Origin: Bacteroidales bacterium
Lineage (GTDB): Bacteria > Bacteroidota > Bacteroidia > Bacteroidales > UBA10428
NCBI GenBank assembly: GCA_016936215.1
Contig: JAFGPL010000157.1
Coordinates: 1-46,207 of the forward strand
Length of the DNA stretch: 46,207 nt
Direction: 5' to 3'
The notes under the pieces are model-generated. The model did no database searches, had not been told where the DNA came from, and worked only from the letters and a program-made list of their open reading frames with translations. Of this stretch, positions 24,998-38,955 are shown in pieces. Each line of letters starts with the position of its first letter. The stretch's first letter is position 1. The translations under genes were made by a program, and so were the position numbers.

Positions 24998-25996
24998 TTG
25001 AAAGAGGCATTGTATTATAAGACCTCAGCAGGCAGGGTTACCTGCCTGCTCTGCCCTCATACCTGCGAAATAAAAGAAGGTGCCCGTGGTATCTGCAAGG
25101 TCAGGAAAAACCATGCCGGTAAGTTATACAGCGAGAACTACGGATTGATTTCTGCTATTAATTTTGATCCTGTTGAGAAAAAGCCATTGTACCATTTTTT
25201 CCCCGGCTCGGTTATTTTATCAATAGGCAGCATAGGCTGTAACATGAAATGCAGATGTTGCCAAAACTGGCAGATATCACAGGCTTCCCCCGATGATTAT
25301 TATCACGACAAAAGATATGCACCGGAAGAAATCCTAAAGCTGGCAAAATCAAAGAGCAAAAATATTGGGGTGGCTTATACATATAACGAACCAACCGTGT
25401 TTTTTGAGTTTATGCTCGATACAGCAAAACTTATCTGGCAGGAACGATTGAAAAACGTTGTGGTTTCCAATGGTTTTATCAGTGAAAAGCCATTATTTGA
25501 ACTTCTTGAATATACAGATGCCTACAATATTGATCTGAAAGCATTCAACGACAAATTCTATAAAACACAGACAGGTTCGGGCTTACAACCGGTACTCAAT
25601 ACACTGAAGATACTTGGGAAAAGTGGCAAACACCTGGAAATTACGAACCTTGTCATCCCAACCCTTAATGATGATGAGAGAGAATTTACAGAAATGGTAA
25701 ACTGGATTTCTTCTGAACTTGGCAGCAGGACTGTGTTGCACCTGTCGCGCTATCACCCTATGTACAAACTTGGTATTGAACCTACTGGTGCAGGTGTGCT
25801 TGAGAAGTTTTACCGCATTGCTGCAGAAAAACTACGTTACGTTTATGTCGGAAACATTCATATGAAAGATTTTCAGGATACAAAATGCCCGACCTGCGGA
25901 AGATTGCTGATTAAAAGGACTGGTTACTTTATTGATACAGAAGGCATAGACAAAGAAGGAAAATGCAAATATTGCGGGGAAAAAGTAATAGGATAA
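24998..25996 (+). CDS. amrS: AmrS-type radical SAM protein of the AmmeMemoRadiSam family
   Basis: A 332-residue protein starting at TTG; there is no in-frame ATG before the core, and the TTG start gives the family-like opening MKEALYYKT. The N-terminus has a four-cysteine cluster (Cys16, Cys19, Cys23, Cys33), then the segment DPVEKKPLYHFFPGS at 57-71 and the radical SAM motif Cys81-x3-Cys85-x2-Cys88 (GCNMKCRCCQNW). The C-terminus has two CxxC pairs (CPTC and CKYC), probably a zinc ribbon. Homologues are usually encoded near Memo and AMMECR1 proteins; neither is here. Reaction unknown. It may have its own promoter in 24885-24997, though I could not identify one. Confidence 0.85.
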   Translation: MKEALYYKTSAGRVTCLLCPHTCEIKEGARGICKVRKNHAGKLYSENYGLISAINFDPVEKKPLYHFFPGSVILSIGSIGCNMKCRCCQNWQISQASPDDYYHDKRYAPEEILKLAKSKSKNIGVAYTYNEPTVFFEFMLDTAKLIWQERLKNVVVSNGFISEKPLFELLEYTDAYNIDLKAFNDKFYKTQTGSGLQPVLNTLKILGKSGKHLEITNLVIPTLNDDEREFTEMVNWISSELGSRTVLHLSRYHPMYKLGIEPTGAGVLEKFYRIAAEKLRYVYVGNIHMKDFQDTKCPTCGRLLIKRTGYFIDTEGIDKEGKCKYCGEKVIG

Positions 25997-28783: not shown

Positions 28784-31700
28784 ATGGCCCATCTCAACAT
28801 AGTGCGCGCTTCTGCGGGTTCAGGAAAGACTTTCAGGCTTACCCTCGAATATCTTTCATACCTGTTTGATGATACCGGCAATTTCAGGCATATTCTTGCA
28901 GTAACCTTTACCAATAAGGCTACCGGTGAGATGAAATCAAGGATTATCAGCGTGTTGCATTCACTTTCAGCGGGCAACCCCGATCATTATCTTCGGCCAC
29001 TAATGGAAATCACGGGAAAAACCGAAAAAGATATTCGTCTTAAAGCAGGTATCATCCTGAAAAAAATACTGCATAATTACTCCCGGTTTAGCGTGGGTAC
29101 CATTGATAGCTTTTTTCAGTATGTTATCCGCTCTTTTACACGTGAAATAGGTATTCAAAGCAATTATAACCTCGAGCTCGACGATGAAAATGTGCTGAAC
29201 ATTGCCATTGAAGATATGTTCAACAGGATAGGACAGGATACCGGGTTGCGCAACTGGCTTATAGAATTTACCCTGTCAAGGGTCGAAGAAGAAAAAGGAT
29301 GGAACCTTAAAAACAAAATCATTGAACTGGGAAAGGAGATTTTTAAGGAGAAGTATAAACTTTATGCCGGTTCAATAGCAGAAAAACTCAATGACAAAGC
29401 GTTTCTTACAGCATTTAAAGGCCGGCTTTTTAAAATCACTGCATCGTTTGAGTCAGCAGTTATAGAATATGGCCGGCAGGCACTTGGAATATTCGATGAC
29501 CATAATCTTTCCGTTGATGATTTTTACCAGAAATACAGGGGGCCTGCAGGTTTTTTTCAGAAAATGGCAGCAGGCAATGTGCCAGATATAAATTCCTATG
29601 TTACAGAAGTTTTACAAAATCCTGACAAATGGTTTAAATCCAATCACCCGCAAAAAAGCTTTATACAGGGCGTGGTTGAAAACTCTCTCCATCCCTTGTT
29701 GCAAAAGGTTGTTGATTTTATGGATGAACAAAGTAAACAATACCATACAGCCAGAACACTCATCAGGAATTTTTATACCCTTGGTATCCTTACAGATATT
29801 ACTGCCTCGGTGTACAGGCATACCCGAAACAAAAACCTTTTTCTCATCAGCGATTCGGCCCAGTTGATCAACAGGATTATAGACAATAACGATGCCCCAT
29901 TTATTTATGAGAAAACGGGCAACTATTTTCACCATTTCCTCATTGATGAGTTTCAGGATACCTCGGGCTTTCAGTGGCAAAACTTCAAACCGCTTATCAG
30001 CAACAGCCTGTCGCAGGATTATAATTGCCTGATCGTGGGCGACCCGAAGCAATCAATCTACAGGTGGAGAAACGGCGACTGGGAAATTCTGTTAAAAGAT
30101 GTGTTTGATGATTTTTACAGCGGGGCAATCCGTACCGAAACCTTAGAAGTTAACTGGCGCAGCAAAAAGAAGATCGTGACATTTAACAACCGTTTTTTTA
30201 CCATCGCGCCGTGCATATTTCAAAGCCTGTTTCAAAAAGATGAAAACAATAAAGAACTTCCTTATCATCACATTATTGAGAAGCTTTATGCCGATGTCAA
30301 TCAGCAATTGCCTGCAAATGCCGGGGATGGCGGGTATGTCAGGATAAGTGTTGTGTCCCCGGGTTCACAATATGGCGGGACCGTGCTTCCAAAAATTGCA
30401 CAGTGTATAGGTGATCTGCTCGATCAGGGTTATACACCGGGTGAAATAGCAATACTTGTGAGGAGTAAAAAAGAAGGAAAAGAGGTAGCGGATTTTCTTT
30501 TGGCGCAAAGACAAAACCCGGAAGGAATAAATGGCAAAAGTTTCCACATTGTTTCAGAAGAGGCTCTTTTTATTGGTTCATCCCCTGCTGTGAAATTCAT
30601 TATTTCGGTATTCCGTTACCTTACCGACCCGGACGATGATATTAACTGCTATTTCATGCTTTTTGAATACCTGAATTATATTCAAAAGGTTACATCAGTA
30701 AAAGAAGATGCTATAATGCCACCATTCAGCCGTTCATCGTTAAAAGATGATGTACGCAGGGTAATGCCTGAAGTCTTTTCTATCTTTGGGGCATCACGCC
30801 CGGGATCGCCCGTGTATGAAATATTGCAAAAGGTAATAATTACCTATAATCTATCTGCACTACAGGGTGAACAGGTTTATGTCAATGCCCTGCAGGACAT
30901 GGTGATAGATTTTTCGGGTCGAAACAGTTCAGGTTTGGATGCATTTCTGAATTACTGGGAAGAAACCGGTTCTAAAAAAACCATCCCCGGCGCCGATAAT
31001 CTTGATGCTGTGAGGATACTTACCATTCATAAATCGAAGGGACTTGAATTCAATGTTGTGATTATGCCTTTCTGCAACTGGAAAATCAATCCTCCGGCAG
31101 GCAATATTATATGGTGTATGCCAAAAGACAGCCCTTTCAACCAATTGGAGGTTTTGCCCGTAAATTATGGAAGCTTTCTGGAGAATACTTGTTTTTCAGG
31201 CGATTACAAAGATGAAAAGCTGAGGATTTATATTGATAACCTTAACCTGCTTTATGTTGCATTTACCAGGGCAAAAGATGCTTTATTCTGCTATATGCCT
31301 GCCGATGAAAGAAAATCAGGGAAAGATATTTCAGACATCTCGCATCTTATTGGCGAAACATTGAAGCAGTTCCAGGATGCACATCCTGATATTTTAGTTA
31401 CCGAACTACAGGAAGAAAAGATATTTGAGTATGGCAATCTCTCACGGCCACAGCAGACTGAAAAGGAACAGGTGGACAGGCTTGATGCTGACATGTTGCC
31501 TGCATATAACTCGTTGCAGAGAATGAGTGTTTCAACCCATGCCCGGGACTTTCTTTCATACGGCGAGGAGGGATTTTCCCCTTTAAGCTACGGCAAAATC
31601 ATGCACGCGCTATTCGCCCGGGTCATAACGCTTAATGACATTGGGCCTGCGCTTGTCAATCTTTTTTATCGCGGGATGATTGATAAAAACGAAATGGAAA

Positions 31701-32008
31701 ATATCAGGAAAGAAACCGCGGCAATGTTTTCTGATATCCAGGTACAGGGCTGGTTCTCTGGTGAGTGGAAAATATTGAATGAAAGGGATATTCTTTTTAA
31801 AGGCCATGAAAACAAACGTCCTGACAGGGTATTGGTCAAAGAAGATAAAGCCATTATTATTGACTATAAATTCGGTGAAAAGGAAAATGATGAACATAAA
31901 AAACAGGTAACAGGGTATCGCGATCTGCTTAAAAGGATGGGATACCGGCAGGTTGAAGCATATTTGTGGTATACAGGTAAAAATAAAATTATACAGGTAA
32001 CTGAATGA
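28784..32008 (+). CDS. addA: AddA-like UvrD-family helicase-nuclease
   Basis: A 1074-residue protein with all superfamily 1A helicase motifs: Walker A ASAGSGKT at 9-16, motif Ia VTFTNKATGEM at 40-50, motif II IDEFQDT at 388-394 (Asp389, Glu390), motif III VGDPKQSIYRWR at 419-430, motif V TIHKSKGLEF and motif VI LYVAFTRAKDAL. The C-terminal PD-(D/E)XK nuclease is intact: Asp1014 (RPDRV), Asp1027 and Lys1029 (IIDYKFG), then a QxxxY-type helix. It should unwind and resect double-strand breaks for RecA, with the AddB-like protein two genes on. Its stop overlaps the next start (ATGA). Note that the neighbour between the two subunits is a radical SAM gene. Confidence 0.92.
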   Translation: MAHLNIVRASAGSGKTFRLTLEYLSYLFDDTGNFRHILAVTFTNKATGEMKSRIISVLHSLSAGNPDHYLRPLMEITGKTEKDIRLKAGIILKKILHNYSRFSVGTIDSFFQYVIRSFTREIGIQSNYNLELDDENVLNIAIEDMFNRIGQDTGLRNWLIEFTLSRVEEEKGWNLKNKIIELGKEIFKEKYKLYAGSIAEKLNDKAFLTAFKGRLFKITASFESAVIEYGRQALGIFDDHNLSVDDFYQKYRGPAGFFQKMAAGNVPDINSYVTEVLQNPDKWFKSNHPQKSFIQGVVENSLHPLLQKVVDFMDEQSKQYHTARTLIRNFYTLGILTDITASVYRHTRNKNLFLISDSAQLINRIIDNNDAPFIYEKTGNYFHHFLIDEFQDTSGFQWQNFKPLISNSLSQDYNCLIVGDPKQSIYRWRNGDWEILLKDVFDDFYSGAIRTETLEVNWRSKKKIVTFNNRFFTIAPCIFQSLFQKDENNKELPYHHIIEKLYADVNQQLPANAGDGGYVRISVVSPGSQYGGTVLPKIAQCIGDLLDQGYTPGEIAILVRSKKEGKEVADFLLAQRQNPEGINGKSFHIVSEEALFIGSSPAVKFIISVFRYLTDPDDDINCYFMLFEYLNYIQKVTSVKEDAIMPPFSRSSLKDDVRRVMPEVFSIFGASRPGSPVYEILQKVIITYNLSALQGEQVYVNALQDMVIDFSGRNSSGLDAFLNYWEETGSKKTIPGADNLDAVRILTIHKSKGLEFNVVIMPFCNWKINPPAGNIIWCMPKDSPFNQLEVLPVNYGSFLENTCFSGDYKDEKLRIYIDNLNLLYVAFTRAKDALFCYMPADERKSGKDISDISHLIGETLKQFQDAHPDILVTELQEEKIFEYGNLSRPQQTEKEQVDRLDADMLPAYNSLQRMSVSTHARDFLSYGEEGFSPLSYGKIMHALFARVITLNDIGPALVNLFYRGMIDKNEMENIRKETAAMFSDIQVQGWFSGEWKILNERDILFKGHENKRPDRVLVKEDKAIIIDYKFGEKENDEHKKQVTGYRDLLKRMGYRQVEAYLWYTGKNKIIQVTE

Positions 32009-32994
32009 CGGCACACTTTCCTTGGGGCACTGCGCGCAGGTTTAACGCTTATCCGGATTATATGCGGAAACTATTTGGCACAAGGGTGCAAAAAGTGGCA
32101 ATTGATGCCGGTTTCACATGCCCTAACCGCGATGGCACAAAAGGGTGGGGCGGCTGTACCTATTGCAGCAACGAAGCCTTCAACCCTTCGTATTGCAGCG
32201 CATCGAAATCTATCACGCAACAGGTTTCCGAAGGTATAGAATTTCATCGCAACAGGTACCGGCGGGCGCTTGGATACATTGCTTATTTTCAGGCTTATAC
32301 CAATACCTATAAATCTCTTGAAGAGCTTGATAAAATGTATTCCGAAGCGCTTGCTGTTGAAGGTGTTACAGGATTGATCATAGGTACCCGTCCCGATGCC
32401 GTAGACGATAAGAAGCTTGATTATCTTGCAAAACTGGCCGAAAAGACTTACCTGGTCATAGAGTATGGTATCGAATCGGTATACAACAAAACCCTTGAAA
32501 GGGTAAACAGGTGCCATACTTTCGAAGAGACTGTTATTGCCCTTGAAAAAACTGCTGCACGGCATATCCGCACGGGAGGGCATTTCATTTTCGGGTTACC
32601 CGGTGAGACACGTGAAGAGATGTTGAAATCTGTAGCTGTTATTTCTCAACTGCCGCTGGATGCTGTTAAGTTCCATCAGTTACAGATTTTTAAAGGCACT
32701 GTTATGGCTGGTGAATACCAGGTACATCCCGAAAATTTTTCTTTGTTCAATGACCTTGATGAATATCTTGAATTTATGGTGTCGTGCATTGAAAACCTCA
32801 ATCCCGGGTTCGTGGTCGAAAGAATTGCAGGCGAAGCGCCACCGCGCTATTGCGAAGGTATTGTCTGGGACCTTCGGAATGACCAGATATTGGTGAAATT
32901 TGAAAAGCTGCTTGAGAAACGAAATACCTGGCAGGGGAAAAAATGGCTTGAGAGAAATTGTGCCGATAGTCAAATATTTAATACCACAAAATGA
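32005..32994 (+). CDS. YhcC/TIGR01212-type radical SAM protein
   Basis: A 329-residue protein whose cluster motif is unusual, Cys39-x11-Cys51-x2-Cys54 (TCPNRDGTKGWGGCTYCSN), as in the E. coli YhcC family. Other family blocks are YFQAYTNTYKSLEEL, IGTRPDAVDD, YGIESVYNKTLERVNRCH, HFIFGLPGET and KFHQLQIFKGT. The family's reaction is not firmly established to my knowledge; a tRNA- or nucleotide-modification role is guessed from resemblance to Elp3-like enzymes. It overlaps the AddA-like gene by 4 nt (ATGA) and the AddB-like gene by 4 nt (ATGA), so all three proteins should be made from one mRNA with coupled translation. Confidence 0.9.
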   Translation: MTAHFPWGTARRFNAYPDYMRKLFGTRVQKVAIDAGFTCPNRDGTKGWGGCTYCSNEAFNPSYCSASKSITQQVSEGIEFHRNRYRRALGYIAYFQAYTNTYKSLEELDKMYSEALAVEGVTGLIIGTRPDAVDDKKLDYLAKLAEKTYLVIEYGIESVYNKTLERVNRCHTFEETVIALEKTAARHIRTGGHFIFGLPGETREEMLKSVAVISQLPLDAVKFHQLQIFKGTVMAGEYQVHPENFSLFNDLDEYLEFMVSCIENLNPGFVVERIAGEAPPRYCEGIVWDLRNDQILVKFEKLLEKRNTWQGKKWLERNCADSQIFNTTK

Positions 32995-35867
32995 ATCAAT
33001 ATTTTTTGAAACAGGCTGCATCTTATTTTTTATCGCAATATAACGCTGATACTGAAAGTATTGCAGTGGTGTTCCCGGGCAAACGCCCCATACGTTATTT
33101 CAACAATTATCTGTCTGAGATTTCCGAAAAACCTGTCTGGGCCCCGGCATATCATACCATTTCCGGTTTAATGGAAACACTTTCGGGTTACACGGTAGCC
33201 GTGAAACTTACGCTTATTTTTGAATTGTACGATGCCTTTAAGCGTGTCACCAATACCACCGAACAAATAGATGATTTTTTTTATTATGCCGCGATTTTAC
33301 TGTCAGATTTTGACGATATTGACAAATATTTAGTCAATCCGCATGAGATCTTCCAAAATCTTGCCGGACTGAAAAGTATTGAAAATCATTTCGACTACCT
33401 CGATGCCGACCAGTTGAAAATTATCGGCCGCTTTTGGGATTCATTTAAACACGGAAAACTTTCGGGGGAGAAATCATCTTTTGTTTCTCTATGGGAAGTT
33501 ATGCCTGCAGTTTACGATAGTTTTAAATCTTCCCTGCAGCAAAAAGGCATTGCATACGAGGGAATGATTTACAGGAAAGTCGCTGAAGACATTGCCGCCG
33601 GCCAACTTGAAACCATCGGTGTAAAAAAATTTATTTTTATAGGTTTCAACGCTTTGAACAAGGCCGAAGAACGATTGCTCAACCACCTGAAAACAAAAGG
33701 TATGGCTGAATTTCTATGGGATTATGACCATTATTACATAAACAACAGCGTACATGAAGCAGGCTTCTTTATAAGGGAAAATATTAAAAGGTTTCCTGCC
33801 CCTGATATCGGGATGAATTTCGAAGGTTTAACCCGTAACGACAAGAAAATTACATTTGTGAATGCGCCTTCAAATACAGGGCAAACTGGTGCTTTATCAT
33901 TTTTTATGAAAGATTTGCCACGGGATTATGAAAATCCGGTGAACACTGCCGTTGTCCTTGCAGATGAGTCGTTGCTCCTGCCTGTTTTGTCAGCAGTTCC
34001 GGGTTCATACAAAGATATGAATGTAACGATGGGTTTCCCTGTTATGCAAAGCAGCATATACCATTTGGTGAACTGTATCGTCAACCTTCACGCCAACTCC
34101 AGGAATTCTGCCGGCAATACCCTGCGTTTTTATCATAAAGACGTGATTGCCCTGCTCAACCTGCCGGAAATAAATATTGAAGAAGCCGACCGGGTTAAGG
34201 AATTGAAGAAATCAATCATTGAGTCTAATGCTGTTTACCCTGCTGCAGAGGATGTTGCGGTTTCCGGTATGCTGAAACTCATAACCGGCCTGCCTGGTAA
34301 TGCAAAAAAAATTCCTGAATATTTTCTGAATATTTTAACAAAGCTTGCTGCTGATTTTGTTTTATCAGGCGATCAAAACAGCAACCATACCTGGCAGGCA
34401 GAAATGCTTTACCTGTCGGTTGTAACCTTTAAACAGATGAAAGAACTGATTGAAGGGGCGCAGATAGAATTATCAACTGGTATGGTTTTTAATATCATAC
34501 TGAAATCGTTGGCTGAATTGTCAATCCCTTTCTCTGGAGAACCTCTCAAAGGACTGCAGGTGATGGGGATACTCGAAACCAGGGTGCTTGATTTTGAAAA
34601 TGTTATTATTTTTTCAATGAACGAAGGCATTTTTCCAAAGACCGGTAACCCCCCTACATTTATCCCCCTGGGCCTCAGGTATGGGTTTGGGTTGCCTGTT
34701 CCCGAACACAGGGATGCCATCTATGCCTATTATTTTTACAGGCTTATTCAGCGGGCGAAAAATATTTGCCTGGTATACAATTCAAGGCACGATGGAATGG
34801 CAACAGGTGAACGGTCGCGTTTTTTGCACCAGCTATACTATGACCCTGTTTTTAAGGTGGAAGAAAAAGTGATTGTCCCTGATGTGGTTTTTACACTGCC
34901 AAAAAAAATTCAGGCTGCCAAAGATGACCGGGTTATGAAAATACTTCAAAAATACCTGGGTGATCATAGCGGGTCATATTTTACCCCCAGCGCGATAAAC
35001 ACATACCTCAACTGCCAGTTACGGTTTTATTTCAAATACATCGTGGGGTTGAAGGAGCCTGATATTCTGTCTGAAGAACTCGATCCGGCATTATTCGGTT
35101 CTGTTTTGCACAAGGCTATGGAATTGCTTTACAGTCCTTTCGTGGGTAAAATATTGAATGATAAAGCGATAGAAGAAATTCAGCAAAACGGCGAATTGCT
35201 TGCCGGGGCTGCAGACCAGGCTTTCAGCGATGAGTTTTTCAACGGAAAAAAAACTGAGATATCGGGCAGAAACATTATTCTGCGGGAGATTATCCTTAAA
35301 TACATTCAACAGATACTTGAATTTGATAAACGCTATGCACCTTTCAGGCTGGTCGCACTTGAAAAGAAATACATTTTTGATCTTGACCTGCCTGATGGCC
35401 ATCAATTAAGGATAGGCGGGATCATTGACCGAATTGACGAAAAAGAAGGGGTGCTGAGGATCGTGGATTATAAAACGGGTGTTAAAAAAAACACTTTCGA
35501 AAACACCGATGAACTTTTTGATCAAACGGGATCGAAAAGAAATAGCGCTGTGTTTCAGATTTTTCTGTATAGCCTTGTGATGCAGAAAAATGAGGGTAGG
35601 GATGCGATTTTGCCAGGCCTCTATTTTATCCGCAGTATGTTTAACCCGGAATTTGACTTCCGGGTTATAGAACAACAGGGTAAAAGCCAAAAAACATCAG
35701 TTGACAATGCAATTCCGTACCTGTCAGAATTTGAAAAACGCTTGAAAGTTACGCTTGCCCAACTTTTTGATAATAAAGTACACTTTGTGCAAACCAACGA
35801 TATGGAGGTCTGTAAGAATTGTCCTTACAATACGGTATGTCATCGCGAAAGTACCGGCAACAAGTAA
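32991..35867 (+). CDS. addB: AddB-like nuclease with iron-sulphur cysteines
   Basis: A 958-residue protein. The N-terminal two thirds fit a decayed UvrD-like helicase: the expected nucleotide-binding loop reads VVFPGKRPI, not a proper Walker A. The C-terminal PD-(D/E)XK nuclease is intact, Asp813 (IIDRID), Asp826 and Lys828 (VDYKTG). Four cysteines, Cys675 (TYLNCQLRFYF) and Cys941-x2-Cys944-x5-Cys950, match the spacing of the AddB iron-sulphur staple. Together with the AddA-like protein it would form a two-nuclease AddAB complex that resects broken ends. It overlaps the radical SAM gene by 4 nt and is convergent with the KamA-family gene, 4 nt apart. Confidence 0.9.
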   Translation: MNQYFLKQAASYFLSQYNADTESIAVVFPGKRPIRYFNNYLSEISEKPVWAPAYHTISGLMETLSGYTVAVKLTLIFELYDAFKRVTNTTEQIDDFFYYAAILLSDFDDIDKYLVNPHEIFQNLAGLKSIENHFDYLDADQLKIIGRFWDSFKHGKLSGEKSSFVSLWEVMPAVYDSFKSSLQQKGIAYEGMIYRKVAEDIAAGQLETIGVKKFIFIGFNALNKAEERLLNHLKTKGMAEFLWDYDHYYINNSVHEAGFFIRENIKRFPAPDIGMNFEGLTRNDKKITFVNAPSNTGQTGALSFFMKDLPRDYENPVNTAVVLADESLLLPVLSAVPGSYKDMNVTMGFPVMQSSIYHLVNCIVNLHANSRNSAGNTLRFYHKDVIALLNLPEINIEEADRVKELKKSIIESNAVYPAAEDVAVSGMLKLITGLPGNAKKIPEYFLNILTKLAADFVLSGDQNSNHTWQAEMLYLSVVTFKQMKELIEGAQIELSTGMVFNIILKSLAELSIPFSGEPLKGLQVMGILETRVLDFENVIIFSMNEGIFPKTGNPPTFIPLGLRYGFGLPVPEHRDAIYAYYFYRLIQRAKNICLVYNSRHDGMATGERSRFLHQLYYDPVFKVEEKVIVPDVVFTLPKKIQAAKDDRVMKILQKYLGDHSGSYFTPSAINTYLNCQLRFYFKYIVGLKEPDILSEELDPALFGSVLHKAMELLYSPFVGKILNDKAIEEIQQNGELLAGAADQAFSDEFFNGKKTEISGRNIILREIILKYIQQILEFDKRYAPFRLVALEKKYIFDLDLPDGHQLRIGGIIDRIDEKEGVLRIVDYKTGVKKNTFENTDELFDQTGSKRNSAVFQIFLYSLVMQKNEGRDAILPGLYFIRSMFNPEFDFRVIEQQGKSQKTSVDNAIPYLSEFEKRLKVTLAQLFDNKVHFVQTNDMEVCKNCPYNTVCHRESTGNK

Positions 35868-35871
35868 GATG

Positions 35872-37404
35872 TCAGATTACTGTCCCACGGTTATAATCCG
35901 ATTTCTTGAATTCCTCCTCCAGTTCATCAAGAATGTCAACAGGATTGGTCAGGGGCATATTTTCGGTGTGAAGTTCATAACCTAAGAGTTTTGATTTTTC
36001 AATTTGTTCAAAAGCCGGAAGCCTTGTACGATTTGTGGTCTCGATGTGATTTCCTTTTTCATCAACTAGGATGACCCTGGGCAGGAATACTCCTTTTCGT
36101 CCGATGAATGCATCCATAATCTTCACTGCCTCTTCGTACTCTTCCTTCCGTGCGCGTCCAAGGGCTTCGTATTTAATTATTTCTTTGCTGTCCCAGGTAT
36201 AAACATTGGCATAACTTTCCGATATTTTGTCATCAATTTTCGTATCCAGGCCAAGCGTGTCATGCCCTGATGGCATAAGCAGCACTTTGCCCCCGCCACC
36301 TTCAACATTGGCCGCATAACGGGGCATTGTAATCCCCGATATCCAGCCCTGCAGGTGTTTCATATAAATTTTTCCCACCTGTATCGGGGTGATAAAATGG
36401 ACAATACCTTTTTCTTTATGGCATTGCAGCAGGTAATAGGGGTGAACACCAATCCAGAACATTCTTCTGAATGTCTCTGCCAGTGTACGGTAGCTGTCGT
36501 TTACATGGTTCAGCAACACCGTCTGGTTGCGGATGGTAAACCCGTATTCACGAATTTTTTTGACTGCCTTGTAGAGGTCTTTTGTAATCTCCTGGTAATG
36601 ATTGATGTGTGTCATAAAATACACATATTTGTCTATACCCTTGGTGTACTTGTTGGCCGATTTTTTTATCATTTCAAGCAACTCATCAGTAATGGCCATT
36701 GGCATTACAACAGGTACCCTGGTGGCAATTCTTATCACGCGCAGGTGGGGAATTTTGCTTAATTCTTCAAGAACATATTTTAGCTGTTTTTTACTTATCA
36801 TCAGGGCATCACCGCCGGTAACAAGCACTTCGTTAATGTTTTTGTTGTACCTGATATAAAACAAACCTTTACTGATTTTAACAGTATTAACATGCGTTGT
36901 ACTATCAAGCGATTTGGCCCTCTGGCAATGAACACAATATGAGGCACAACTTGTGTTCTCTGCCACAAAAAGGGCAATACGGTTCGGGTACCGCTGGTAG
37001 GCTGCGCCGAAACTTCTGGAGCTCTCGTGCATAGCCTCTTCTACACCCGCATCGGGAAATAGGAGGTTTGCAGGGGTGGGCACGCTTTGCCAGAAAACCG
37101 GGTCTAACCTTTTTTTAGATTTTTCACCAAAAAAATCAGGGTGAAAAGGGTCCTCCTGGATCAGCGAGGCATAATAAGGTGTGATCCGCATCGGTTCCTT
37201 CCCTTCTTTCCTCAACGAGTTTATGGTGCGTTTTATCTCTTCCTCCTGGAATTTATTTAGTTTGATTACCTTTTTTAATTGTTCGGTATTGCGTATGGCA
37301 TTTTTTCTTTGCCATAACGGGTCATACCAATCTTCACGGGTAACTTTTGCCCAAAGTTCAATTGATTTCCACTTGCGCGGTTTATATAAATAACTGTCTT
37401 TCAT
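35872..37404 (-). CDS. KamA-family radical SAM aminomutase, substrate probably not lysine
   Basis: From the ATG at 37404 the protein is 510 residues; a longer reading from a TTG at 37515 adds 37 unconserved residues. The radical SAM motif is Cys153-x3-Cys157-x2-Cys160 (CASYCVHC) and the PLP lysine is Lys373 in GGGGKVLLMP. The two aspartates that hold the lysine side-chain amine in clostridial lysine 2,3-aminomutase (Asp293 in QCD and Asp330 seven residues before the PLP lysine) align with His329 (QCHKE) and Asn366 here. Glutamate 2,3-aminomutase, as I recall, has Lys and Asn there. It should move an amino group between C2 and C3 of an amino acid, but the substrate may be acidic. It lies downstream of trmD on the same strand; the gap 37405-37583 holds a 14-bp palindrome at 37562-37575 and no gene. 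Confidence 0.82.
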   Translation of the reverse strand: MKDSYLYKPRKWKSIELWAKVTREDWYDPLWQRKNAIRNTEQLKKVIKLNKFQEEEIKRTINSLRKEGKEPMRITPYYASLIQEDPFHPDFFGEKSKKRLDPVFWQSVPTPANLLFPDAGVEEAMHESSRSFGAAYQRYPNRIALFVAENTSCASYCVHCQRAKSLDSTTHVNTVKISKGLFYIRYNKNINEVLVTGGDALMISKKQLKYVLEELSKIPHLRVIRIATRVPVVMPMAITDELLEMIKKSANKYTKGIDKYVYFMTHINHYQEITKDLYKAVKKIREYGFTIRNQTVLLNHVNDSYRTLAETFRRMFWIGVHPYYLLQCHKEKGIVHFITPIQVGKIYMKHLQGWISGITMPRYAANVEGGGGKVLLMPSGHDTLGLDTKIDDKISESYANVYTWDSKEIIKYEALGRARKEEYEEAVKIMDAFIGRKGVFLPRVILVDEKGNHIETTNRTRLPAFEQIEKSKLLGYELHTENMPLTNPVDILDELEEEFKKSDYNRGTVI

Positions 37405-37583: not shown

Positions 37584-38273
37584 TTATTCATTTTTTATGT
37601 CTGTTAATAGATCGGGCCTGAGCCTTTGGGTTCTTTCAAAACTCTGGTCAAGCTTCCACTGTTCTATTTCTTTTGTATTCCCTGACAGCAGGATATCGGG
37701 CACTTTCCAGCCTTTATATTCAGCAGGCCTTGTATATACAGGCGGAGAAAGAAGGTTGTCCTGGTATGAATCTGTAAGCGCTGATGTTTCATCCGACATT
37801 GCACCCGGCAGCAGCCTTACCACACTGTCAACAAGCACCGCGGCAGCAAGCTCGCCTCCTGTCAGTACGTAGTCGCCGATGGATATCTCACGTGTTATCA
37901 GGTGGTCGCGTATTCTTTGGTCAATACCCTTGTAATGCCCGCACAATATAATAATGTTTTCAAGGGTAGAAAAATAGTTTGCCATTTTCTGATGATATTG
38001 CTCTCCATCGGGGGCTGTGTAAATTATTTCATCGTATTGGCGTTCTTTTTTTAGTTTTTCAATAAGAATATCAATGGCTTCGATACCCATGACCATACCG
38101 GCGCCGCCTCCAAATGCGTAATCATCTACCTGCTTGTGTTTGTTCTGGGCATAGTCCCTTATGTTATGTATTACAATCTCCACACAGCCTTTGGCTTGTG
38201 CACGTTTGATGATTGATTCGCTGAAAGGCCCTTCAAGCAGTCCGGGATGTATGGTAAGAATATCTATCCGCAT
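37584..38273 (-). CDS. trmD: tRNA (guanine-37-N1)-methyltransferase TrmD
   Basis: I chose the ATG at 38273 ([10 protein letters not shown]), which gives 229 residues and matches the family start; an ATG at 38300 would add nine residues. SPOUT-knot motifs are clear: FGGGAGMVM at 54-62, [21 protein letters not shown] and the [10 protein letters not shown] end. It methylates N1 of G37 next to the anticodon and prevents +1 frameshifts. The usual rpsP-rimM-trmD-rplS operon is absent here; trmD stands alone, as is common in Bacteroidota. It is divergent from the small heat-shock gene; the 235-nt gap 38274-38508 shows no clear gene or promoter. Confidence 0.96.
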
Positions 38274-38508
38274 GTTGCAAAGGTACAAACTTATGTTCAA
38301 TTACACTTTTTCCGGTTTTATTAAATGGCTTTTTCATGCGATATTACCCAAAATTTCTGACAAACAGGCATAATGATACACCTACAAAATGCCATTTTGA
38401 CTACTTTAAGCAGGAAATTCAGGTCAGAATGTCTTTTAAATTTTTTGGCTTATAACTTGTATGTTTATTAGAAACGAAAAAGAATAGTAACTTAAAATTT
38501 AAATAATT

Positions 38509-38955
38509 ATGGCACTGATACATTACAAATCCCCGGAATTAAACCACAGCAATGGTTATAACGGTTACAAAACATTCAGCGAACTGGTAAACAGTCTTTT
38601 CAATAACAACAATCACGATTGCAGGACTTGCAGGCCGGCAGCCAATATTTATGAGTCAAGTACCGGTTACAGGATTGAACTGGCTATTCCAGGTCTTGAA
38701 AAAAACCAGGTAAAAATTAGTATTGACAATGATTTACTGGTACTGAAACATGAATCTTCCCGTGAGAAAAAGAGCAATAATGTTTACACGCGCCATGAAT
38801 TTAGCTATGTAGATTTTGAGCGTTCGTTTATCATCCCTGAAAATGTTGACAGTGAAAAGATTTCGGCAAATTATCACAACGGCTTATTGATTGTAAAGCT
38901 TCCTCTTAAAGAAGATCAGGTTAAGAAAGGGCCAAAAGAGATTGATATAAAATAA
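38509..38955 (+). CDS. Small heat-shock protein, Hsp20/alpha-crystallin family
   Basis: A 148-residue protein. A polar N-terminal part with an Asn/His-rich stretch (NNNNHDCRTCRPAAN at about 32-46, including an odd CxxC) precedes the alpha-crystallin domain, about 47-140 (YRIELAIPGLEKNQVKISIDND..., FERSFIIPENVD, AxYxNGLLxVKLP). It holds unfolding proteins in a refoldable state in the cytoplasm. The C-terminal tail is short and lacks a clear I-x-I motif. It stands alone and is followed by a strong terminator, consistent with a single-gene stress transcript. Confidence 0.93.
   Translation: MALIHYKSPELNHSNGYNGYKTFSELVNSLFNNNNHDCRTCRPAANIYESSTGYRIELAIPGLEKNQVKISIDNDLLVLKHESSREKKSNNVYTRHEFSYVDFERSFIIPENVDSEKISANYHNGLLIVKLPLKEDQVKKGPKEIDIK

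Follow-up and report, generated by a model that had tools for sequence, protein, structure and literature searches.

The window, meaning the whole stretch of 46,207 nucleotides analysed here, was found to be contig C226 of a 5.3 Mb genome which possesses two KamA-type genes. One of these lies on the minus strand of the window at 35872..37404, with its ATG at 37404 and its stop codon at 35872, and its open reading frame and translation give a KamA-type radical SAM aminomutase of 510 amino acids, assigned here to a His/Asn ("HN") family. The protein carries all three features which we take to be hallmarks of KamA enzymes: a CxxxCxxC motif (Cys153, Cys157 and Cys160; 36925..36948, minus strand), the carboxylate-site arginine (Arg162, following the motif, at the place of Arg134 in lysine 2,3-aminomutase, LAM) and the PLP lysine in a GGGGK loop (Lys373, equivalent to LAM Lys337; codon at 36286..36288, minus strand). 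The cysteine motif is kept in 80 of 81 family rows, the exception being a half-gene without that stretch, and Lys373 is invariant across 98 aligned rows. The codons of His329 (36418..36420) and Asn366 (36307..36309), which stand at the places of LAM Asp293 and Asp330, and the C-terminal region comprising residues 383–510 (35875..36258) are likewise read from the minus strand.

Upstream of the aminomutase and co-directional with it, the list of open reading frames places a gene at 37584..38300 (minus strand), presumably a tRNA (guanine-N1)-methyltransferase, trmD, by the look of its sequence. A total of 179 bases separates its stop codon from the ATG of the aminomutase. Divergent from this trmD-like gene is one at 38509–38955 which gives the impression of a small heat-shock protein (HSP20-like). 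On the other side of the aminomutase, at 28784–35867, two genes with the appearance of helicases or nucleases (1074 and 958 aa) stand on either side of a radical SAM-like protein (329 aa, 32005–32994) in an apparent single operon, these names also being impressions from sequence.

Side-chain sites and predicted fold

The earlier note had placed Asn366 and His329 at LAM Asp330 and Asp293 and had called the alignment sound. This was borne out by comparison with the solved LAM structure 2a5h, which was the sole PDB sequence relative of the aminomutase at E up to 0.001 (phmmer, E 2.7e-64). Residues 322–379 pair with residues 286–343 of the 2a5h chain with no gap, an alignment which runs through the PLP lysine and thus equates His329 with Asp293, Asn366 with Asp330 and Lys373 with Lys337. 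Misalignment as the source of the His/Asn pair was rejected on the same ground. The two aspartates presumably hold the side-chain amine of lysine in LAM.

An AlphaFold2 model was obtained from 98 aligned rows (pLDDT 88.9, pTM 0.90), an earlier model from 6 rows having been discarded as poor (pLDDT 53.2). It superposed on 2a5h_A with a Z score of 43.5 and an rmsd of 1.6 over 340 residues, model residues 10–382 lying on chain residues 3–345, and the next structural match was far lower (Z 14.1). In this predicted model His329 comes after a strand at 320–327 and Asn366 closes a strand at 362–366. Beside His329 stand Lys330 and Lys332, the latter position being Arg in 9 rows. Two acidic residues are also close by, each two residues past one of the lost aspartates: Glu331 (LAM Ser295), found in 79/81 rows, and Glu368 (LAM Pro332), found in 20 of 21 rows with Asp in the remaining one.

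The C-terminal 128 residues are conserved within the family, with 23 invariant columns in 17 rows. This region gave no match to PDB sequences at E up to 10 and nothing over cut-off in Pfam, while the Foldseek and VIA-align rows span mainly residues 127–413 and are uninformative on the C-terminal part. MalM appeared below threshold in 10/17 members at E up to 1 (best E 0.00056) and was taken as chance.

The His/Asn family among KamA enzymes

Sixty genomes were searched, namely the window's own and those of 59 relatives, and close matches of 68–75% identity were found in 6/59 relatives, four of which fall among the 22 genomes of the window's own taxonomic family. Scanning of named species genomes yielded 80 loci at 61–79% identity (the best 80 of 100 confirmed), mostly from metagenome-assembled Bacteroidales and, as recorded, also from Ignavibacteria, Aminicenantes, Delongbacteria and others. 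His329 and Asn366 are present in 81/81 loci (the window and the best 80 of 100), and a one-off mutation was rejected on this basis. These loci were fetched with two patterns, one of which includes the histidine (QCHKEKG) and neither of which includes the asparagine; the 9 rows with Arg332 break QCHKEKG and were thus fetched by the other pattern. Among aligned rows, in which the window was entered twice, His and Asn occur in 79/81 as well as in 3 loci added later, the two exceptions being the half-gene of L085, which is missing both sites, and L095_8, a bystander LAM. At least L093 and L113 encode identical proteins among the 81 loci.

Some individual loci are of note. At L085 (10001–11521) open reading frame calls give the family gene in two frames 37 bases apart, representing a broken gene or a sequencing error, and L053 and L109 are two family copies in one genome (G384). 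At L095 (9908–12926) the family member is followed 89 bp downstream by a LAM (774.6 bits, over the TIGR03820 cut-off), and a gene 45 bp upstream gives the impression of an enolase.

Even sampling of the phylum (296 genomes) turned up, apart from the window's own genome, 3 genomes containing a match with the score and frame length that a family member should have. One of the 3, G244, agrees in coordinates and score with L158, a His/Asn locus. The gene tree (80 rows, with the split L085 left out) intermingles phyla, as would be expected from sporadic transfer, mis-binned contigs being a possible alternative.

To place the family, 21 of the 81 loci entered a KamA tree of 87 rows along with 66 other rows, family copies fetched twice being omitted and the two site columns being removed beforehand. 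One branch (support 99) separates the 21 family rows from the rest, on a stem 2.09 changes per column in length; the joining point of this stem is unsure, and a long-branch warning was given by the program. At LAM 293/330 the residue pair follows the clades of this tree, with D/D in 43 rows, H/N in 21, Q/D in 10, R/S in 6, K/N in 4, D/T in 2 and D/E in 1, and H/N is absent outside the His/Asn family among the 87 rows. The D/T rows are annotated arginine 2,3-aminomutases and the D/E row is EpmB, most other rows having no assigned function. By favoured residue, 35 positions set the family (≥90%) apart from the D/D group (≥80%), including Tyr290 to Leu326, Arg302 to Ile338, Pro332 to Glu368 and Thr133 to Gln161.

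Two further groups of KamA proteins were observed. A clade of the window's phylum (L133, L135, L136, L138 and L142–L147) has Gln at the Asp293 site and Asp at 330 and is another possible change of substrate; for L133 the nearest NCBIfam model is arginine 2,3-aminomutase (466 bits, cut-off 600). Longer KamA relatives at L026 and L027 (655 and 662 aa) and at L159 and L160 (767 and 750 aa) have CxxxCxxC followed by QR like the window protein, with Lys/Asn at the two substrate sites and no PLP lysine at the GGGGK position, where the alignment is uncertain. L026 scores 355 bits on TIGR00238, and L159 and L160 are under its cut-off.

The general KamA model TIGR00238 was the sole NCBIfam KamA model passed by the aminomutase (251.7 bits, cut-off 199.2). 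Scores were under cut-off for TIGR03820, lysine 2,3-aminomutase (279 bits, 525.4), TIGR04368, glutamate 2,3-aminomutase or GAM (259.4 bits, 650), TIGR04468, arginine 2,3-aminomutase (205.1 bits, 600), TIGR03822, lysine-2,3-aminomutase-like or AblA-like (185.3 bits, 396.25) and TIGR03821, EpmB (174.8 bits, 369.3). LAM_C (PF12544) had no match in the aminomutase at E up to 0.001. The genome's second KamA possesses Asp/Asp and LAM_C and, at 455.6 bits, is itself under the LAM cut-off.

The aminomutase shares with LAM (KamA/AblA) the predicted fold, the CxxxCxxC motif, the carboxylate-site arginine and the PLP lysine. It differs in having His/Asn in place of Asp293/Asp330 in bearing its own C-terminal region of ~130 residues and in giving no LAM_C match. 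The KamA core is also common to arginine 2,3-aminomutase (BlsG), of which two annotated loci have Asp/Thr, and to EpmB, involved in EF-P beta-lysylation, with Asp/Glu in the one examined. On the basis of four features, namely residues, model scores, domain and clade, the label of lysine 2,3-aminomutase is likely to be wrong, in agreement with the earlier note, and the His/Asn group is judged from its sequences to be a new, separate KamA subfamily. Among the literature matches listed, covered by title and abstract opening and with enzyme names containing a comma being unsearchable, no description of the family was found. As the residue pair sorts cleanly by clade in the 87-row set, it could be used as a rapid guide to annotating KamA proteins.

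GAM presumably has Lys at the first side-chain site and Asn at the second, and would therefore resemble the aminomutase in having a basic residue followed by Asn at this pair, differing in Lys where the aminomutase has His. On the GAM model, however, the aminomutase is outscored by LAM-type proteins (L001 406.5, L120 476.5, L150 497.8 and L167 519.9 bits), so that it is no GAM orthologue by that test, and three other family members score 234, 244 and 249 bits. Its match begins at model position 44, compared with position 2 for L165. As the general KamA model was passed and the GAM model and others failed, the comparison with GAM is one of analogy. The most GAM-like proteins found, L165 (632 bits) and L166 (608 bits), are both under the cut-off of 650; they have Lys at the first site and Thr at the second, and a Lys directly after the first site as in the family (NCKKVEG compared with QCHKEKG). 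With the family model of GAM, nothing over cut-off came up in the window's phylum (296 genomes) or in another phylum (198 genomes), and no feature was named glutamate 2,3-aminomutase in two plasmid tblastn listings (60 of 136 and 60 of 138 records).

Gene neighbourhoods

No neighbour is common to most loci. The largest non-self cluster covers 15/81 loci (the 80 and the window) and looks, by sequence impression, like PAS-type signalling proteins. Recurrent blocks at L035 and its sisters (OmpA, aldehyde ferredoxin oxidoreductase) were regarded as plain vertical synteny and not used.

Genes for ion balance or osmotic stress were found within 3 kb of the aminomutase in 10/80 loci (best 80 of 100 confirmed), two of which, L053 and L109, come from one genome. 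An antiporter-like gene lies upstream by 18–29 bp in L047, L048, L049 and L079 and by 367 bp in L109, an SLC12-type gene adjoins the family member in L062, L067 and L083, TrkA and TrkH are near it in L053, and an MscS-type gene is near it in L055, L067 and L109. L083 also has a trehalose-phosphate synthase/phosphatase and a trehalase-like gene, found in L067 at 7.5 and 3.1 kb, and L055 has universal stress and S30AE proteins, found in L067 at 6–7 kb. A fusion gene of GNAT-like and histone-deacetylase-like parts flanks the family member in L053 (by Pfam) and in L055 (by similarity). The remaining 70 loci have none of these neighbours within the available flanks, some of which are very short, and window positions 25000–46207 hold none of the ion-balance or osmotic neighbours.

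These names are of unequal strength. The antiporter label is weak, with the L055 homologue at 44.6 bits in NCBIfam (cut-off 355) and the L047 protein without a family match in either Pfam or NCBIfam. Pfam assigns the SLC12 query to AA_permease, and its score on a K-Cl cotransporter model is 277.8 bits (cut-off 953.4); two homologues of this query reach the Pfam SLC12 domain (L055 38.8 and L109 27.3 bits, cut-off 27). Of the trehalose genes, the L083 trehalose-phosphate synthase exceeds its cut-off (926.3 compared with 634) and the trehalase-like gene is under those of its models.

The loci come from 79 distinct genomes, among which 35 copies of the SLC12 query (32 genomes) and 23 of the antiporter query (23 genomes) were counted. 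Within 3 kb, 5 antiporter copies were seen against 0.04 expected by chance, and 3 SLC12 copies against 0.06, the expectations resting on copy numbers and genome sizes entered by hand with fragments merged by eye. Osmotic or ion functions were assigned to 16/435 near genes compared with 6/596 far genes of the same loci (Fisher p 0.003), all 6 far genes falling in four of the ten loci. The chance and near/far figures are optimistic, as the probes were selected with the neighbours already in view and related loci are not independent. The fewest changes (gains or losses) in adjacency on the gene tree number 4 for the antiporter, 2 for SLC12 and 2 for the GNAT/deacetylase fusion.

Riboswitch control was sought with Rfam, which gave no match in the window and one tRNA and nothing else in 18 of the 80 loci. 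AblB is the N-acetyltransferase that serves the N-epsilon-acetyl-beta-lysine route. It scores over cut-off in 6/49 family genomes, these being MAGs and maybe incomplete; one plasmid control was also run. N-epsilon-acetyl-beta-lysine is therefore unlikely as a general product of the family.

Candidate substrate and role

With both acids lost and a histidine, Lys330 and Lys332 gained, an acidic substrate appears more likely than a basic one, and by analogy glutamate is a plausible candidate. The earlier note had proposed an acidic substrate such as glutamate because the Lys/Asn of GAM suggested that a basic residue plus Asn suits one. An acid pocket is indeed plausible, and Lys occupies the first site in the GAM-like L165 and L166; kinship with GAM itself is what the scores do not bear out. 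The osmolyte idea, prompted by its remark that beta-glutamate is an osmolyte, gains post hoc support from the neighbourhoods in 10/80 loci, which suit an anionic osmolyte of this type, and draws none from the other 70 loci or the window, where such neighbours are absent from the available flanks.

The best explanation as a whole, to which a probability of about 0.43 is given, is that the family is a separate group of 2,3-aminomutases converting glutamate to beta-glutamate, an anionic compatible solute. By inference from LAM, SAM would be cleaved to a 5'-deoxyadenosyl radical, which would take a hydrogen from C3 of an amino acid bound to PLP as an aldimine, whereupon the amino group would move from C2 to C3. 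The side-chain pocket, with His329 and Asn366 and with Lys330 and Lys332 alongside, may hold a carboxylate, which would make glutamate the most probable substrate and beta-glutamate the product. This product could act as an anionic compatible solute balanced by K+ and made under osmotic or general stress, as the neighbours in some loci suggest. In methanogens and a few bacteria, beta-glutamate is described as an anionic solute (PMC1224877). According to PMC9337991, Na+ riboswitches occasionally precede ablA and eam genes, so that a salt link for KamA enzymes is already known.

The same residues can be read in other ways. Losing both aspartates counts against basic substrates and no others, amides or neutral polar groups can be bound by His and Asn, and the further changes from the D/D group (Leu326, Ile338 and Gln161 for Tyr290, Arg302 and Thr133) would also fit another non-basic amino acid, such as glutamine, 2-aminoadipate or alanine, with a beta-isomer serving as an osmolyte or building block. 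This is unlikely, as nothing points to any particular one of these and an anionic solute fits the cation-transport neighbours better. A basic substrate keeps a small chance on account of the near-invariant Glu331 and Glu368, which might represent the acidic pair shifted by two residues in an enzyme for lysine or another basic amino acid that feeds an osmolyte of the N-acetyl-beta-lysine type. That route exists in methanogens and has been proposed for Pelobacter carbinolicus (PMC1224877 and PMC3543383). The GNAT/deacetylase fusion at L053 and L055 and the AblB of 6/49 family genomes would suit it too, but the fusion has no AblB match in NCBIfam, AblB is not over cut-off in the other 43 (possibly incomplete) genomes, and the His and Lys residues are conserved within the same loop as Glu331. 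Moreover, a KamA with Asp/Asp and LAM_C is already present in the window's own genome, though under the LAM cut-off, and in L095 a LAM over its cut-off lies directly downstream of the family member; this alternative is considered quite improbable.

Least probable of all, and regarded as a slim chance, is action on a residue within a peptide or protein, in the manner of EpmB on lysyl-EF-P, or some other radical PLP reaction, with the C-terminal domain recruiting the target. In its favour, that region is particular to the family, conserved and of no clear known relative, and most loci share no gene neighbour; nevertheless, the protein retains the catalytic elements of free amino acid mutases and its residue pair is unlike the D/E of EpmB. 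The glutamate reading is thus preferred. Its widest form, that of an unrecognised multi-phylum family with an acid-binding pocket evolved independently of GAM, a beta-glutamate osmolyte paired with K+ and an osmotic cluster in some hosts, is held as less likely than not.

The case of IdnL4 is a reminder that assignments of the GAM type need assays, as in PMC11284099 this presumed glutamate 2,3-aminomutase is genetically required for a starter unit and its expected activity was unseen in vitro. A recent gut study (PMC12502400) reports that beta-glutamate is raised in disease and that KEGG describes a single reaction for it. For annotation, the general KamA label covers enzymes with probably different substrates. 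If the wider reading is true, the family would give bacteria a way to beta-glutamate other than the known enzyme and, if its members make this compound, would put a gene to a beta-amino acid whose producers are poorly known.
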